A stretch of DNA of 6,121 nt. It comes from Gammaproteobacteria bacterium. Lineage in GTDB: Bacteria > Pseudomonadota > Gammaproteobacteria > J113. The notes below the pieces were generated by a model. That model did no database searches. It was not told the origin of the DNA and saw only the letters and a program-made list of their open reading frames with translations. The position numbers and the translations under genes are program-made. The stretch spans positions 1-6,121 of the forward strand of contig RFJX01000017.1 of NCBI GenBank assembly GCA_003694425.1, given 5' to 3'. Positions 3,301-6,121 of this stretch are shown piece after piece; the first letter of the stretch is position 1; the number at the start of each line of letters is the position of its first letter.

Positions 3301-4200
3301 ATGGACACCCTGGAGCGCACCCTGCAGGACTACCTGCGCTCCAGCCCGCAGTTCTCCCCCCGGACCCTGGAGGCCTACCGGCGTGACCTGGAGGGCCTGA
3401 CCCGCTACTGCCGGGAGCAGGGCATCGAAGGCTGGGACCAGCTCGACACCGCCCTCGTCCGCCGCTATCTGGCGCAACGCCACCGTGAGGGTGCGAGCGG
3501 GCGCTCACTCCAGCGCTGCCTCTCGGCCATGCGCTCCCTCTTCCGCCACATGCTCCAGCGCCGGCAGGCGAAGGCCGACCCCACCGTCGGGGTCCGCCCC
3601 CCGCGCGGGCCCAGGCGCCTGCCGGAAGTCCTCGACGTGGACCAGACCGCGGCCCTGCTGGGCCCGCCGGGCGACGATCCGCTGGAGATCCGCGATCACG
3701 CCATGTTCGAACTGGCCTACTCCAGTGGCCTGCGGGTGAGCGAGCTGACCGGCCTGGACCTGGACGACCTGGACCTGCCCGGTGCCTCCCTGCGGGTGGT
3801 GGGCAAGGGCCGCAAGGAGCGCCAGCTCCCCGTCGGCAGCATGGCCCGCAAGGCCCTGGATGCCTGGCTCGAGGCGCGCCAGCACCTTGCCCGCCCCGAC
3901 GAGCGGGCCCTCTTCACCGGCCGCGGCGGTGGACGCCTGACCACCCGCTCGGTCCAGCAGCGGCTCGACCGCTGGGCCCGCCGCCGCGGCCTGGACGTCC
4001 CGGTCCATCCCCACATGCTCCGCCACTCCTTCGCCAGCCACCTGCTCGAATCCTCCGGCGACCTGCGCGCGGTGCAGGAACTGCTCGGCCACGCCAATAT
4101 CTCCACCACGCAGGTCTATACTCATCTTGATTTCCAGCATCTGGCGGGGGTGTACGACCGGGCACATCCGCGGGCGAGGAAGAAGAAGTCTGGCGACTGA
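3301..4200 (+). CDS. xerC: Site-specific tyrosine recombinase XerC
   Basis: XerC acts with XerD at the dif site to resolve chromosome dimers at cell division. The protein has 299 residues, the normal XerC length. The N-terminal SAM-like DNA-binding domain spans about 1-90 (SPRTLEAYRRDL; SLQRCLSAMRSLFRHM). The catalytic domain carries the full tyrosine-recombinase set: Arg145 (SGLRVSEL), Lys169 (GKGRKER), His238 and Arg241 (HPHMLRHSFASHLL), His264 (LLGHANI) and the nucleophile Tyr273 (TTQVYTHLD). The spacing between Lys169 and His238 is that of XerC/XerD, with no room for the extra segment of integron integrases, so this should not be taken as the integrase for the cassette downstream. The ATG at 3301 follows the DUF484 stop by 5 bases with only a weak upstream site, pointing to translational coupling. 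The last codons and stop lie within a perfect palindrome. Confidence 0.96.
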   Translation: MDTLERTLQDYLRSSPQFSPRTLEAYRRDLEGLTRYCREQGIEGWDQLDTALVRRYLAQRHREGASGRSLQRCLSAMRSLFRHMLQRRQAKADPTVGVRPPRGPRRLPEVLDVDQTAALLGPPGDDPLEIRDHAMFELAYSSGLRVSELTGLDLDDLDLPGASLRVVGKGRKERQLPVGSMARKALDAWLEARQHLARPDERALFTGRGGGRLTTRSVQQRLDRWARRRGLDVPVHPHMLRHSFASHLLESSGDLRAVQELLGHANISTTQVYTHLDFQHLAGVYDRAHPRARKKKSGD

Positions 4201-4214
4201 TGTCGCCAGACTTC
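4185..4214 (+). terminator. Perfect 13-bp hairpin across the xerC stop codon (possible terminator)
   Basis: GAAGTCTGGCGAC (4185-4197) and GTCGCCAGACTTC (4202-4214) are exact reverse complements around the loop TGAT, which contains the xerC stop TGA. The stem is long enough to end transcription or protect the 3' end of the dapF-DUF484-xerC mRNA, but no T-run follows, so it is not a classical intrinsic terminator. It may instead be a mobile palindromic repeat or the scar of the event that brought in the accessory DNA. Confidence 0.5.
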
Positions 4215-4247
4215 GGCTGTTGGCTGTCGGCCATCGGCTGTCGGTAG
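4213..4247 (+). repeat. Five degenerate 7-bp tandem units (TCGGCTG type)
   Basis: Reading from 4213 the units are TCGGCTG, TTGGCTG, TCGGCCA, TCGGCTG and TCGGTAG. Each keeps T-x-G-G in register, so this is a true heptamer repeat rather than chance composition. It begins inside the right arm of the xerC palindrome and lies in intergenic DNA. Such short heptad arrays vary in copy number by slippage; no function is implied. Confidence 0.7.
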
Positions 4248-4282
4248 TGCGGACGAAGTTGAGTCGAGCAGACGAGGGCAGG

Positions 4283-4435
4283 ATGGTTGCCACAGTAGCG
4301 TTTGCCGCCTGGATTATTGCAGTGTTTGTCGGACGTGTACGCTTGGGATTCAATGGGTTAAGGCGGGTGGGTCTGGGTTATATTGCGAAAGTGACGTATT
4401 ACAAGACGTCACTTCCTCGATCTAACTGTAGTTAG
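4283..4435 (+). CDS. Possible small membrane protein, 50 residues (doubtful)
   Basis: The frame opens at ATG 4283, with GAGGG at 4274-4278 just upstream, and closes at TAG 4433-4435. The product would start MVATVAFAAWIIAVFVGRVR, one hydrophobic helix (about 2-16) followed by a basic, Gly-rich tail (LGFNGLRRVGLGYIAKVTYY). The helix followed by positive charges gives it the look of a real small single-pass membrane protein, and composition is intermediate between the core genes and the cassette. Against it: it is short, I do not recognise it, and its last codons run through an inverted repeat and into the cassette boundary at 4431, which could mean its original 3' end was replaced. The frame can be extended upstream to an ATG at 4127 inside xerC, but that part is a shadow. 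An alternative view is that 4215-4430 is simply non-coding DNA. Confidence 0.3.
   Translation: MVATVAFAAWIIAVFVGRVRLGFNGLRRVGLGYIAKVTYYKTSLPRSNCS
4377..4426 (+). repeat. Imperfect 50-base hairpin with a perfect 9-bp core
   Basis: The core is AAGTGACGT (4389-4397) and ACGTCACTT (4406-4414) around the 8-base loop ATTACAAG. Outside the core, pairing continues with three mismatches to GTTA at 4377-4380 and TAAC at 4423-4426. It ends a few bases before the cassette boundary. The orientation GTTA...TAAC is opposite to an attC site. It might be an operator, a transcript structure or part of an integration site. Confidence 0.5.
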
Positions 4436-4439
4436 GGGC
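4422..4439 (+). other. Left boundary of the integron cassette (recombination core site)
   Basis: GTTAGGGGC (4431-4439) is the left core site. The expected cut is after G4431, so the cassette begins TTAGGGG. It fits GTTRRRY except for the last base, and it is the exact reverse complement of GCCCCTAAC at 5042-5050 at the far end of the same cassette. Immediately upstream, CTAAC (4422-4426) and GTTAG (4431-4435) form an inverted pair with a 4-base spacer. That resembles the simple inverted core arrangement of attI sites more than a full attC, although a collapsed attC is also possible. Confidence 0.65.
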
Positions 4440-5096
4440 AATAAAGGGAGGCATTGGTGCAGGCCACAGAAATAATTGACGCTATAAAAAAGGCTGTACT
4501 CGATGTAAAGGCGCAACAGCAAGAAGTTATATCTGTTGACGCTATGGCTAACTATCTCGATGCCTTAAAAAAGGATGTGAATGGTGCCGAGGAAGTCAAT
4601 CAGAAAAAATTTGAAGCAGATATTGCGGTATTTCGAGCCGAGCATGAAAGAAATCTTGCACACTATGAGGCACAACAACTCTATGCGCTAGAGATGTTTC
4701 GCTCAGTCATAGCATACGGTCAGGCAGCTTTGAAAAGTGCAATGTTAATAAATGGAGGAGCCGCAGCAGCGCTACTAGCCTTTATTGGAAATATATGGGT
4801 AAAAGGCATTGCCCCTGAAGCTGTGAGTTCCCTAACCAGCGCAATTGCGTATTTTGCGTTTGGTGTGCTCGTTGCGGCTCTCGGTACTGCGGGTAGCTAC
4901 TTCACGCAATATTGTTACAGCGAATCCTTTCAACGGACAGCAGTAGTGTTCCATACGCTTACGGTTGTTGTCGTGCTAGGGGCTTTCGTGCTCTTCGGCT
5001 TTGGAGCGTACGAATCATATCAAGCGTTTGTTGGGCATTTAGCCCCTAACAATGCGCCCCAACCGACGCAGTAAACTGCGCAGCTGGGCGTAAACG
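4432..5096 (+). mobile_element. Integron gene cassette (one ORF plus attC), no integrase in window
   Basis: A 665-bp unit runs between two G|TT core sites. It has the canonical cassette layout: start TTAGGGGC, ribosome site within 20 bases, one ORF filling the unit, and the stop codon lying in the attC loop. The two ends are complementary (GTTAGGGGC and GCCCCTAAC), which is what a circularised cassette requires. Base composition is clearly more AT-rich than in xerC. With no intI in the visible DNA it would be classed as a CALIN or solo-cassette locus unless an integrase lies outside the window. Confidence 0.8.
4457..5074 (+). CDS. Cassette-encoded three-helix membrane protein of unknown function
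   Basis: I cannot assign this 205-residue protein to a named family. The first half (about 1-93) is soluble, charged and strongly helical: DAIKKAVLDVKAQQQE, then KKFEADIAVFRAEHERNLAHYEAQQ, a probable coiled coil. It leads through EMFRSVIAYGQAALKSAMLINGG into three hydrophobic segments near residues 95-115 (INGGAAAALLAFIGNIW), 127-150 and 162-185. The tail is short and polar (APNNAPQPTQ). Helix 1 and the preceding YGQAALKS stretch look like the conserved core of a family. The start is GTG 4457, with GGGAGG (4446-4451) 5 bases upstream; a TTG at 4454 is in frame but only 2 bases from that site. The stop TAA (5072-5074) is inside the attC loop. Cassettes normally lack promoters and none is convincing here. 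Its location and shape would suit a membrane-acting stress, toxin-immunity or phage-defence role, but that is inference only. Confidence 0.88.
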   Translation: MQATEIIDAIKKAVLDVKAQQQEVISVDAMANYLDALKKDVNGAEEVNQKKFEADIAVFRAEHERNLAHYEAQQLYALEMFRSVIAYGQAALKSAMLINGGAAAALLAFIGNIWVKGIAPEAVSSLTSAIAYFAFGVLVAALGTAGSYFTQYCYSESFQRTAVVFHTLTVVVVLGAFVLFGFGAYESYQAFVGHLAPNNAPQPTQ

Positions 5097-5102
5097 TTAG
5101 GC
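5044..5102 (+). other. attC recombination site (59-base element)
   Basis: The site is exactly 59 bp from CCCTAAC (R'', 5044-5050) to GTTAGGC (R', 5096-5102, a perfect GTTRRRY). Inner arms CGCCC (5055-5059) and GGGCG (5086-5090) pair as L''/L', and the apex holds a further hairpin, CGCAG (5067-5071) TAAA CTGCG (5076-5080). Folded as single strand it makes the bulged hairpin that integron integrases recognise. R'' and R' mismatch at the outer base because the six bases after G5096 belong to the next cassette; against its own start (TTAGGGG) the match is perfect. Confidence 0.85.
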
Positions 5103-5120
5103 TCGCAAAGGAGAGGAAGA

Positions 5121-5282
5121 GTGTTTTGCACCAAATGCGGTACTGACAACTCAACCGACGCTCGCTATTGCTACAACTGCGGCACCGCGTTGCCACAAGA
5201 CACGCTGATGCCATCCGAATTACCGCACGTTACCGAAGATTCCAAAGTTACCGATTCGATCCACGAATCCGGTCAAACGTGA
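5121..5282 (+). CDS. Small zinc-ribbon protein, probably truncated, in a second cassette
   Basis: A 53-residue frame starts at GTG 5121, 7 bases after the strong ribosome site AAAGGAG (5107-5113), and 24 bases after the second cassette begins at T5097. The product begins MFCTKCGTDNSTDARYCYNC with Cys3, Cys6, Cys17 and Cys20, a CxxC-x10-CxxC zinc ribbon followed by GTALP, very typical of N-terminal zinc-ribbon domains. In most such proteins this domain is followed by a membrane or other domain. Here there are only about 30 polar residues ending ESGQT, and the stop falls one base before the first dispersed repeat (5284). No attC closes this cassette. I therefore think the 3' part was lost when mobile DNA inserted, though a genuine short protein is possible. 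It is absent from simple long-ORF lists because of its size. Confidence 0.65.
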   Translation: MFCTKCGTDNSTDARYCYNCGTALPQDTLMPSELPHVTEDSKVTDSIHESGQT

Positions 5283-5283
5283 T

Positions 5284-5309
5284 AATTGGGGACAGATTTA
5301 TTTATCAGG
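5284..5309 (+). repeat. Direct repeat copy 1 (AATTGGGGACAGATTTATTT type)
   Basis: AATTGGGGACAGATTTATTT at 5284-5303, then ATCAGG, matches the copy at 5534-5558 except for two substitutions (G/T at 5290, C/A at 5293) and one extra base (C5306). The GGGGACAGATTTATTT wording is, as far as I recall, a common dispersed intergenic repeat in proteobacterial genomes, often near REP-associated (Y1) transposases. That association is from memory and not visible here. Confidence 0.7.
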
Positions 5310-5347
5310 TTCGCGGTCATTATCCGTTGGCAGCGTAAGCTTCCCCG

Positions 5348-5530
5348 TCAAGCGGACAACTCAAAATTAGAGGCTTCGGCCTTTTGCAACGCCTCGGCCG
5401 GTGTCATCCCACCGAGGGAATCGTGGTCGCGCTCCTCGTTGTACTCCAGCATCCTGGCCCAGGTGATCTCCCGGACCTCCTCCAGACTCCTGAACAGCCA
5501 GGTGTCGAGCACCTCGGTCCGGTAGGTCGG
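5348..5530 (-). pseudogene. IS3-family transposase remnant, C-terminal 60 residues
   Basis: On the minus strand, codons from 5530 down to the TGA at 5350-5348 read PTYRTEVLDTWLFRSLEE, then VREITWARMLEYNEERDHDSLGG and MTPAEALQKAEASNFELSA. YRTEVLD, the LEEVREIT helix and YNEERxHDSLGGMTPAE are the hallmark C-terminus of IS3-family OrfB (integrase-core C-terminal region). The catalytic Asp-Asp-Glu residues lie upstream in the full protein and are absent, as is OrfA, so it cannot be active. Homology stops abruptly near 5530, just before the second direct repeat. The segment is GC-rich, unlike its surroundings. I could not identify a convincing terminal inverted repeat after the stop (5310-5347). 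Confidence 0.85.
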
Positions 5531-5533
5531 GAA

Positions 5534-5558
5534 AATTGGTGAAAGATTTATTTATAGG
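5534..5558 (+). repeat. Direct repeat copy 2 flanking the transposase remnant
   Basis: AATTGGTGAAAGATTTATTT (5534-5553), then ATAGG, lies in the same orientation as copy 1, 250 bases further on. It abuts the point where transposase similarity ends (about 5530). The two copies could have mediated the deletion that left only the transposase 3' end, or both could be ends of one inserted unit. Confidence 0.7.
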
Positions 5559-5627
5559 CGTACAAAGTGAAGACGATCGATCTGTGTCTATTTGCCTGGA
5601 GGCTCGCTCTGTCAATAGGTAAAAGAA

Positions 5628-5873
5628 ATGATTACCTGTGATCAGCATGACTACATAGAAATAGTTTGTACATTCAAATATCCTGTCAAGCTGACAATGA
5701 AGGACGGCAGCGTAAAAGAATGTGTCCCGATTGATACCATGTATGACTCAAACAGGAATGAGTGCATGAAGGTTGACCAGGATGGACGTGAAAGTCTGGT
5801 AATTCTAGACGATATCTCCAGACTGGAAGTATGTGTCGATAACCCACACTTTCAGAGAGTATCTTTTGACTAG
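5628..5873 (+). CDS. rof: Rof-like Rho-binding antiterminator
   Basis: An 81-residue cytoplasmic protein. By family (Rof/YaeO of E. coli) it binds the Rho transcription terminator and blocks its RNA loading, reducing Rho-dependent termination. The N-terminus ITCDQHDYIEIVC (2-14) matches the family's I-x-C-D-x-x-D-Y-x-E pattern. The small Sm-like barrel continues with PVKLTMKDGSV, DSNRNECMKV and SLVILDDISRLEV, and ends VDNPHFQRVSFD; length and the LTxKDG and LDxI blocks agree with known Rof proteins. The ATG at 5628 is fixed by the N-terminal motif; its ribosome site is weak (TAGGT with an A-rich spacer). Codons are AT-rich compared with the dapF-xerC genes, so it is probably horizontally acquired or accessory. 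It stands alone, with no attC on either side, so cassette membership is unproven. Confidence 0.8.
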   Translation: MITCDQHDYIEIVCTFKYPVKLTMKDGSVKECVPIDTMYDSNRNECMKVDQDGRESLVILDDISRLEVCVDNPHFQRVSFD

Positions 5874-6089
5874 TGGGCAGTGCATAACGGATTGCCGCAA
5901 CAGACCTGTCAGCCTGTCACACGTTTTGCCATGAACAAGGTGTATCATGCGCCAACTCGCCTTGCCGCGGAGCAAGGCAAGAGGTTCTGATTCAGAGTTC
6001 AGAAGATATGGGGAGAGAATTCAATTAACAGTGGATCTAATCATGACAAAACGTCACCGTTCGTCTGACAATTACCTGATGTGATGCCC
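5874..6089. other. Intergenic stretch with small inverted repeats only
   Basis: No supported gene lies here. GCCTTGC (5959-5965) pairs with GCAAGGC (5972-5978) around a 6-base loop, which could be a weak terminator for the Rof-like gene although no T-run follows. TTCTGA (5985-5990) and TCAGAA (5999-6004) form a second, weaker pair. No attC core pair (RYYYAAC...GTTRRRY) was found. Confidence 0.4.
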
Positions 6090-6121
6090 ATGAAGGTTCA
6101 CTATTTAGAGATTGTTTCTCA
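6090..6121 (+). CDS. Possible start of a VOC/glyoxalase-superfamily gene (cut by window end)
   Basis: From ATG 6090 the frame reads MKVHYLEIVS to the window end. This decapeptide is a common beginning of VOC (vicinal oxygen chelate) family proteins, where the first beta strand carries HYLEI-like text with a metal-ligand His. Only ten residues are visible and the upstream ribosome site is poor (no clear AGGAG), so the call rests on the peptide resemblance alone. Confidence 0.4.
   Translation, partial: MKVHYLEIVS

Follow-up and report, generated by a model that had tools for sequence, protein, structure and literature searches.

A probable integron remnant behind xerC: an attI-like site and one complete gene cassette without an integrase in a gammaproteobacterial genome

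The window analysed here, a stretch of DNA of 6,121 nucleotides, is an entire contig of a gammaproteobacterial draft genome that comprises 2,079,714 bases in 301 contigs and is 75.94% complete. The contig reads, in order, a truncated gumN-type gene, an mscS-type channel gene, dapF, a DUF484 gene and xerC, followed by an AT-richer tail; the contig ends at position 6121 (table 1). Each of the 35 nearest comparison genomes belongs to another family and has only the class in common with the host. The xerC gene, with its 3' end intact, encodes the host Xer recombinase: it is a true XerC by TIGR02224, and we rejected it as an integron integrase, its score against the corresponding model TIGR02249 (126.1 bits) being below the cut-off of 265. 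A short GGCTGT-rich repeat follows xerC (4212-4244), and two more copies of it, 91-94% identical over 31-32 bp, occur on another host contig (C262 8246-8360, L198).

Table 1. Positions of the features discussed, counted from the first letter of the window.
Feature	Position	Strand	Evidence or remark
xerC (host Xer recombinase)	3301..4200	+	NCBIfam TIGR02224, 350.4 bits (cut-off 335.15)
attI-like site	4378..4435	+	hairpin and core, cleavage after G4431; similarity to other heads
Complete gene cassette, between its two cleavage points	4432..5096	+	end complementarity and attC covariance match at the end
ORF, 205 aa, predicted membrane protein	4457..5074	+	GTG start after AGGGAGG; TTG 4454 as alternative
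attC, 59 bp	5044..5102	+	R'' 5042-5050, R' 5096-5102 GTTAGGC; covariance model and fold
Zinc-ribbon ORF, 53 aa	5121..5282	+	Pfam PF13240, 35.7 bits (cut-off 25)
IS3-type transposase, C-terminal fragment	5348..5527	-	Pfam rve_3, E 5.9e-10
rof gene (Rho-dependent termination modulator), near contig end	5628-5873		PF07073

Downstream of xerC, two G^TT cleavage points enclose a unit of 665 bp, which opens with G4431^TTAGGGGC and whose closing end runs from GCCCCTAAC (5042-5050) to G5096^TTAGGC. Since GTTAGGGGC (4431-4439, that is, the first bases of the unit together with G4431) is exactly complementary to the R'' sequence GCCCCTAAC in all nine places, the cassette can be delimited as 4432-5096. 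The first-pass annotation, made from the letters of the window, had already proposed a complete 665-bp cassette with matched ends and a 9-base complementarity between its opening and the left arm of attC, and every coordinate proved right. It had also described a 59-bp attC with nested pairing and the ORF stop in its loop, which agrees with our folding of the bottom strand (60 nt): the R and L arms are nested, the energy is -14.8 kcal/mol (z -2.96), shuffles did equally well in 2 of 200 cases, and the TAA stop codon (5072-5074) lies inside the terminal loop.

A covariance search for attC, which the same annotation had suggested as a check, returned a match ending at 5102 with 40.8 bits and an E value of 1.7e-9 (in the window, with filters off), compared with 10.2 bits for the same place on the opposite strand and 7.5 bits for the best match elsewhere in the window. 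The model, which includes the R and L helices, was built from 26 sites beside intI genes of other genomes, the window being left out. The training material came from members of the class that have an integron integrase, in 40 stretches around or beside intI; 38 candidate attC sites lay on the expected strand and side, and 12 of them were dropped for length, doubtful shape or redundancy. Rough attC scanners, weak on other arrays, were used solely for collecting these sites. Base pairing in the training alignment reached 84.4% of cells (71.1% in shuffles) and covariation 0.377 (0.147 in shuffles), and none of 500 shuffles reached either value. An integron integrase above the curated cut-off is present in 88 of the 229 class genomes searched. 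A host-wide covariance search scored 150 of 3038 candidates and did not recover the window's own attC; a pattern search was used in its place, in which CTAAC-N35..65-CGTTRG occurred a single time in the host genome (2.08 Mb), namely at the cassette site, as against 27 occurrences of the reversed control pattern. Rfam gave no match in the window up to an E value of 1.

Short inverted repeats are common, and one might suppose that chance palindromes happen to lie near an ordinary intergenic ORF. The E value of the attC, the exact match of the nine end bases and the homologues residing in cassettes elsewhere (see below) leave practically no room for this idea, which is refuted by the covariance test. 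The window holds an attC with R''/R' and L''/L' arms, a 5' end and an R'' that complement each other and one ORF in the cassette direction, as an integron cassette does, and, judged by its sequence, 4432-5096 is an integron gene cassette with a true attC and matching ends.

The left edge of the cassette had escaped notice in the first reading. The 54 bp at 4378-4431, which finish exactly at the cassette insertion point, contain a hairpin with 9-bp arms (AAGTGACGT at 4389-4397 and ACGTCACTT at 4406-4414; fold z about -4), and lead into a core, CTAACTGTAG^TTAG, at 4422-4435. When 4201-4431 was compared with 369 genomes of the class, one other genome, G083, matched, at 78% identity over the 54 bp of 4378-4431; a 67-base query (4370-4436) recovered G083 with an E value of 7e-8, the next genome following at 0.03, which is chance level over 369 genomes. 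The element is present in two of these 369 genomes (the host and G083), in none but the host among 398 genomes of the phylum, and in none of the viral contigs (exact pattern), plasmids or Escherichia coli genomes searched.

Sites upstream of real intI genes share the same build, i.e. a hairpin, a few bases and CTA N4 TAG^TTAG. In particular, locus L127, which carries a real intI, has a near-identical hairpin (AAAGTGACG ... CGTCACTTT) 321 bp from that gene. In Smith-Waterman comparisons the window's 66 bases scored 56 with G083 (shuffles 12.7±2.1) and 35 with the attI of L127 (shuffles 13.0±2.3), none of 2000 shuffles being as good in either case. Per 2000 shuffles, those as good numbered 3 for L167, 9 for L105, 21 for L116 and 62 for L126, and 284, 1312 and 1726 for L125, L122 and L115, respectively. 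By this measure the window site is strongly alike some attI sites, while for others the likeness is absent. The core motif CTAN4[TG][AC]GTTRG, defined post hoc from sites already seen, occurs at most 420 bp upstream in seven of 30 intI loci (eight sites in 10,662 bases; about 150 to 321 bp from core to intI) and is missing in the remaining 23, five of the 30 loci having less than 250 bp of flank. It is absent from 87,418 strand-bases of downstream flanks of intI loci, and occurs eight times in 1,208,154 strand-bases of 55 loci with homologues of the cassette protein, where two occurrences (L012 and L017) look like true attI and the one at L012:359 adjoins a truncated intI. Within the window it is found once, at the cassette edge.

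In an attI site the sequence is conserved, and cleavage within it falls at the left border of the first cassette; such a sequence is present here, and similar heads are found in G083 and L127. Its neighbour upstream is xerC instead of its own intI. The segment 4378-4431 looks like an attI site, a call that rests on similarity and that we regard as likely. The first-pass annotation placed the cassette outside any intI-attI array, which is correct as regards the missing intI and overlooks the attI-like site at the left edge. According to one study, descriptions of attI sites are poor except for class 1 integrons, and the standard tool does not search for such sites (PMC9024848).

The arrangement recurs in G083, which differs from the host in family and order, is 99% complete and consists of about 20 contigs. 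There the element (L197:8986-9050) lies 0.4 kb behind thyA and heads a cassette array that opens with ^TTAGCC and contains two attC sites, at L197 9725-9815 (34.1 bits) and 10160-10228 (33.1 bits); the first R'', AGCTAAC, matches the array opening in six of seven places. An intI search at an E value of 1e-60 in 229 class genomes, G083 presumably being one of them, did not report G083, and in 219 kb around the G083 array no ORF piece reached an E value of 0.1 with a profile of 27 IntI proteins, against which the IntI of L127 scores 568 bits. One other genome of the order of G083 (same genus, 87% complete) lacks the attI-like element. A third head, recognized by the core motif only, stands behind greB in L017 (JAEKKX010000017.1, a Lysobacterales MAG). 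Two cassettes follow it (L017:5579-6645; attC of 46.8 and 41.5 bits), the opening GTTAGGC is exactly complementary to the first R'' GCCTAAC, and the second cassette carries a homologue of the window's cassette gene; no IntI piece was found at an E value of 1e-10 in the 12.6 kb of this locus. The closing R' of this second cassette reads GTCAGGC, not GTTAGGC. The three heads, behind xerC, thyA and greB, surfaced without a systematic search.

The position of the cassette next to xerC invites the thought that the host XerC itself took it up at an adjacent site, in the manner of Xer-dependent mobile elements at dif. This we hold to be very improbable, as the other two heads follow thyA and greB, the attC at the right end is complete, with both R and L arms, and is the substrate of IntI, and attI-type cores occur beside intI.

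No intI above the curated cut-off was found in the 2.08 Mb of the host genome (76% complete), where the integrase model responds at two places, both within xerC, and six-frame translation of 4150-4431 and of 5097-6121 revealed no similarity to IntI. The impression of the first reading that no integrase is visible thus extends from the contig to the host genome at its 76% completeness, in which we saw no complete integron, i.e. one with intI present. With the host genome at 75.94% completeness, in 301 contigs, an intI may lie elsewhere in it, and the integron could even be complete in the cell, the integrase being encoded past the end of this contig or on one that was not binned. The end of the contig at 6121 and the completeness of 76% speak for this, as does the statement, in the available portion of PMC9024848, that draft assemblies overestimate integrase-less arrays. 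However, the attI side, where intI would stand (at 150 to 321 bp in seven of 30 intI loci), continues unbroken into xerC, and G083, at 99% completeness, has the same arrangement with no intI found; we therefore consider an off-contig integrase quite unlikely.

Another possibility is that a distant integrase inserted the cassette in trans at a non-classical site (attG or secondary) behind xerC, in which case there would never have been an integron here. Insertion at attG sites is described in the accessible parts of PMC12444791 and PMC12901181, and the lack of any intI remnant in 4150-4431 would be in line with it. A position away from any intI is a feature that the window's cassette has in common with attG-inserted cassettes. 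Yet the 54-bp hairpin and core element is conserved in G083 exactly up to the cleavage point of the array, and the window's element resembles the attI beside intI in L127, whereas attG sites are reported, in the part of PMC12901181 available, to diverge strongly in sequence from classical att sites. A left edge that resembles attI sites rather than unrelated genomic DNA sets the window apart from such cassettes, and we judge this course of events unlikely.

We thus favour the explanation that the locus is probably the remnant of a chromosomal integron behind xerC, which lost intI and kept an attI-like site and one complete cassette. According to this scenario, IntI would once have recombined the folded bottom strand of the attC of a circular cassette with the G^TT of attI, and intI, which in complete integrons stands about 150 to 320 bp upstream of such a core, would later have been deleted. 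The array would now be frozen unless an integrase acts on it in trans. Points that speak against this explanation are the single attC, the small number of genomes that carry the attI-like element, the post hoc definition of the core motif and its absence from most intI loci, the missing likeness to several attI sites, and the negative outcome of the promoter search in 4190-5320.

The DNA to the right of the cassette may be what later insertions left of a second cassette. The zinc-ribbon ORF, also overlooked in the first reading, starts 24 bp past the right cleavage point, which is the usual spacing for a cassette gene, and is probably the gene of a second cassette without its own attC; the covariance model found no second attC after this ORF in the window. 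The IS3-type region begins at 5284, and 5325-5454 within it shares 74-76% DNA identity with IS3 family transposases on plasmids. Two 38-bp direct repeats (5268-5305 and 5518-5555), 79% alike and ending in GATTTATTTAT, bracket the IS3-type fragment.

The 205-aa product of the cassette has no match in Pfam, NCBIfam or PADLOC. The best match in PHROGs (0.027) is to a family whose function is not known, and none of known function was matched. Its sequence retrieved nothing better than an E value of 0.2 from the PDB, and its predicted fold had no match at 0.001 in the PDB or BFVD. The AlphaFold2 model (pLDDT 88.4, pTM 0.60) consists of a long helix (27-115), which runs on to become the first of three probable membrane helices, followed by helices 120-155 and 159-194. 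We predict an inner-membrane protein that has a long helix in its N-terminal part and three membrane helices. No sigma-70-like promoter was recognized in 4190-5320.

A search among 5.8 billion proteins identified 139 relatives, 58 of which form an alignment (A1) together with the window's protein. Pfam matches of single relatives to VIT1 (9.2e-6, 2 of 59) and SLATT_5 (0.02, 1 of 59) are too weak for naming a function. The family is represented in 55 genome-contig loci, 15 predicted viral contigs and nine of the 369 class genomes, the host being counted. In nine of the 55 loci (L012, L017, L018, L019, L027, L030, L033, L038 and L044) the covariance model places an attC no more than about 150 bp from the homologue, at an E value of at most 0.1, and weaker matches lie near it in L009 and L042. 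Inspection by eye adds L004, from another gammaproteobacterial genome, where a relative 77% identical to the window's protein sits between matched cassette ends (GTTATGT at 5972 and 6748, ACATAAC at 6670; fold z -8.75); the covariance model missed this attC because its R' is GTTATGT. Judging from where the homologues sit, the family to which the cassette gene belongs is mobile.

The viral loci show a different setting. The covariance model detected no attC in any of the 15, and in eight of the 12 examined (L090, L092, L093, L095, L096, L097, L099 and L101) an endolysin gene, confirmed by PHROGs in all eight, lies at most about 1.3 kb from the homologue and on the other strand. L091, L100 and L102 do not have this arrangement, and in L103 the homologue is on the strand of its neighbours. 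By contrast, 50,697 phage records yielded no relative to tblastn, and 72,556 plasmid records yielded a single one. Extra genes on the opposite strand of prophages are a known place of phage-exclusion genes. Because the family turns up in integron cassettes as well as beside the lysis genes of predicted prophages, there as an extra gene on the opposite strand, we put a phage-related role first: the likeliest function, proposed tentatively and by analogy, may be to exclude or abort phage infection. The missing relatives among the phage records and the lack of matches in PADLOC, in PHROGs families of known function and in the fold libraries speak against such a role. Anti-phage genes have been reported among Vibrio cassettes of unknown function in the available text of PMC12444791.

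Cassettes outside intI-attI arrays, whether CALINs or solo sites, are said to be poorly explored reservoirs of genes, and the first-pass annotation had assigned the window's cassette to this category. Like a CALIN, the window has an attC-bearing cassette without an adjoining integrase; it differs in keeping an attI-like head and in having a single attC, fewer than the at least two that IntegronFinder 2.0 demands by default, as stated in the accessible part of PMC9024848. The arrays of G083 and L017 have two attC each by our model. With its attI-like left boundary, the locus is better described as an integron without an integrase than as a stray cassette. It resembles a sedentary chromosomal integron in its attI-like core and hairpin and in a first-position cassette of the same orientation, and differs in the lack of intI in the window. 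Another parallel may be the Xanthomonas chromosomal integron at ilvD, in which, as far as the available part of PMC12444791 tells, intI was inactivated or lost in many strains and the cassettes stayed. Both are located behind a housekeeping gene and retain cassettes after the (here presumed) loss of intI; the window's host belongs to another lineage, and its presumed integron lies behind xerC.

A limited look at the literature brought up no study that had searched for attI heads lacking intI. One could go further and imagine stand-alone attI platforms behind xerC, thyA and greB that are filled in trans by integrases from elsewhere in the genome or supplied by other elements, the cassette representing an undescribed anti-phage membrane family of integrons and prophages. 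This combination is rather unlikely; if such platforms did exist, integron capture would need no integrase beside the array, and the hairpin-core signature would make the platforms countable. The cassette family, which lacks a model in the libraries searched and is common to integrons and predicted prophages, is a good candidate for testing phage exclusion. A hairpin and CTAN4TAG^TT core that can be recognized without intI would split integrase-less arrays into remnants that keep attI and stray insertions.
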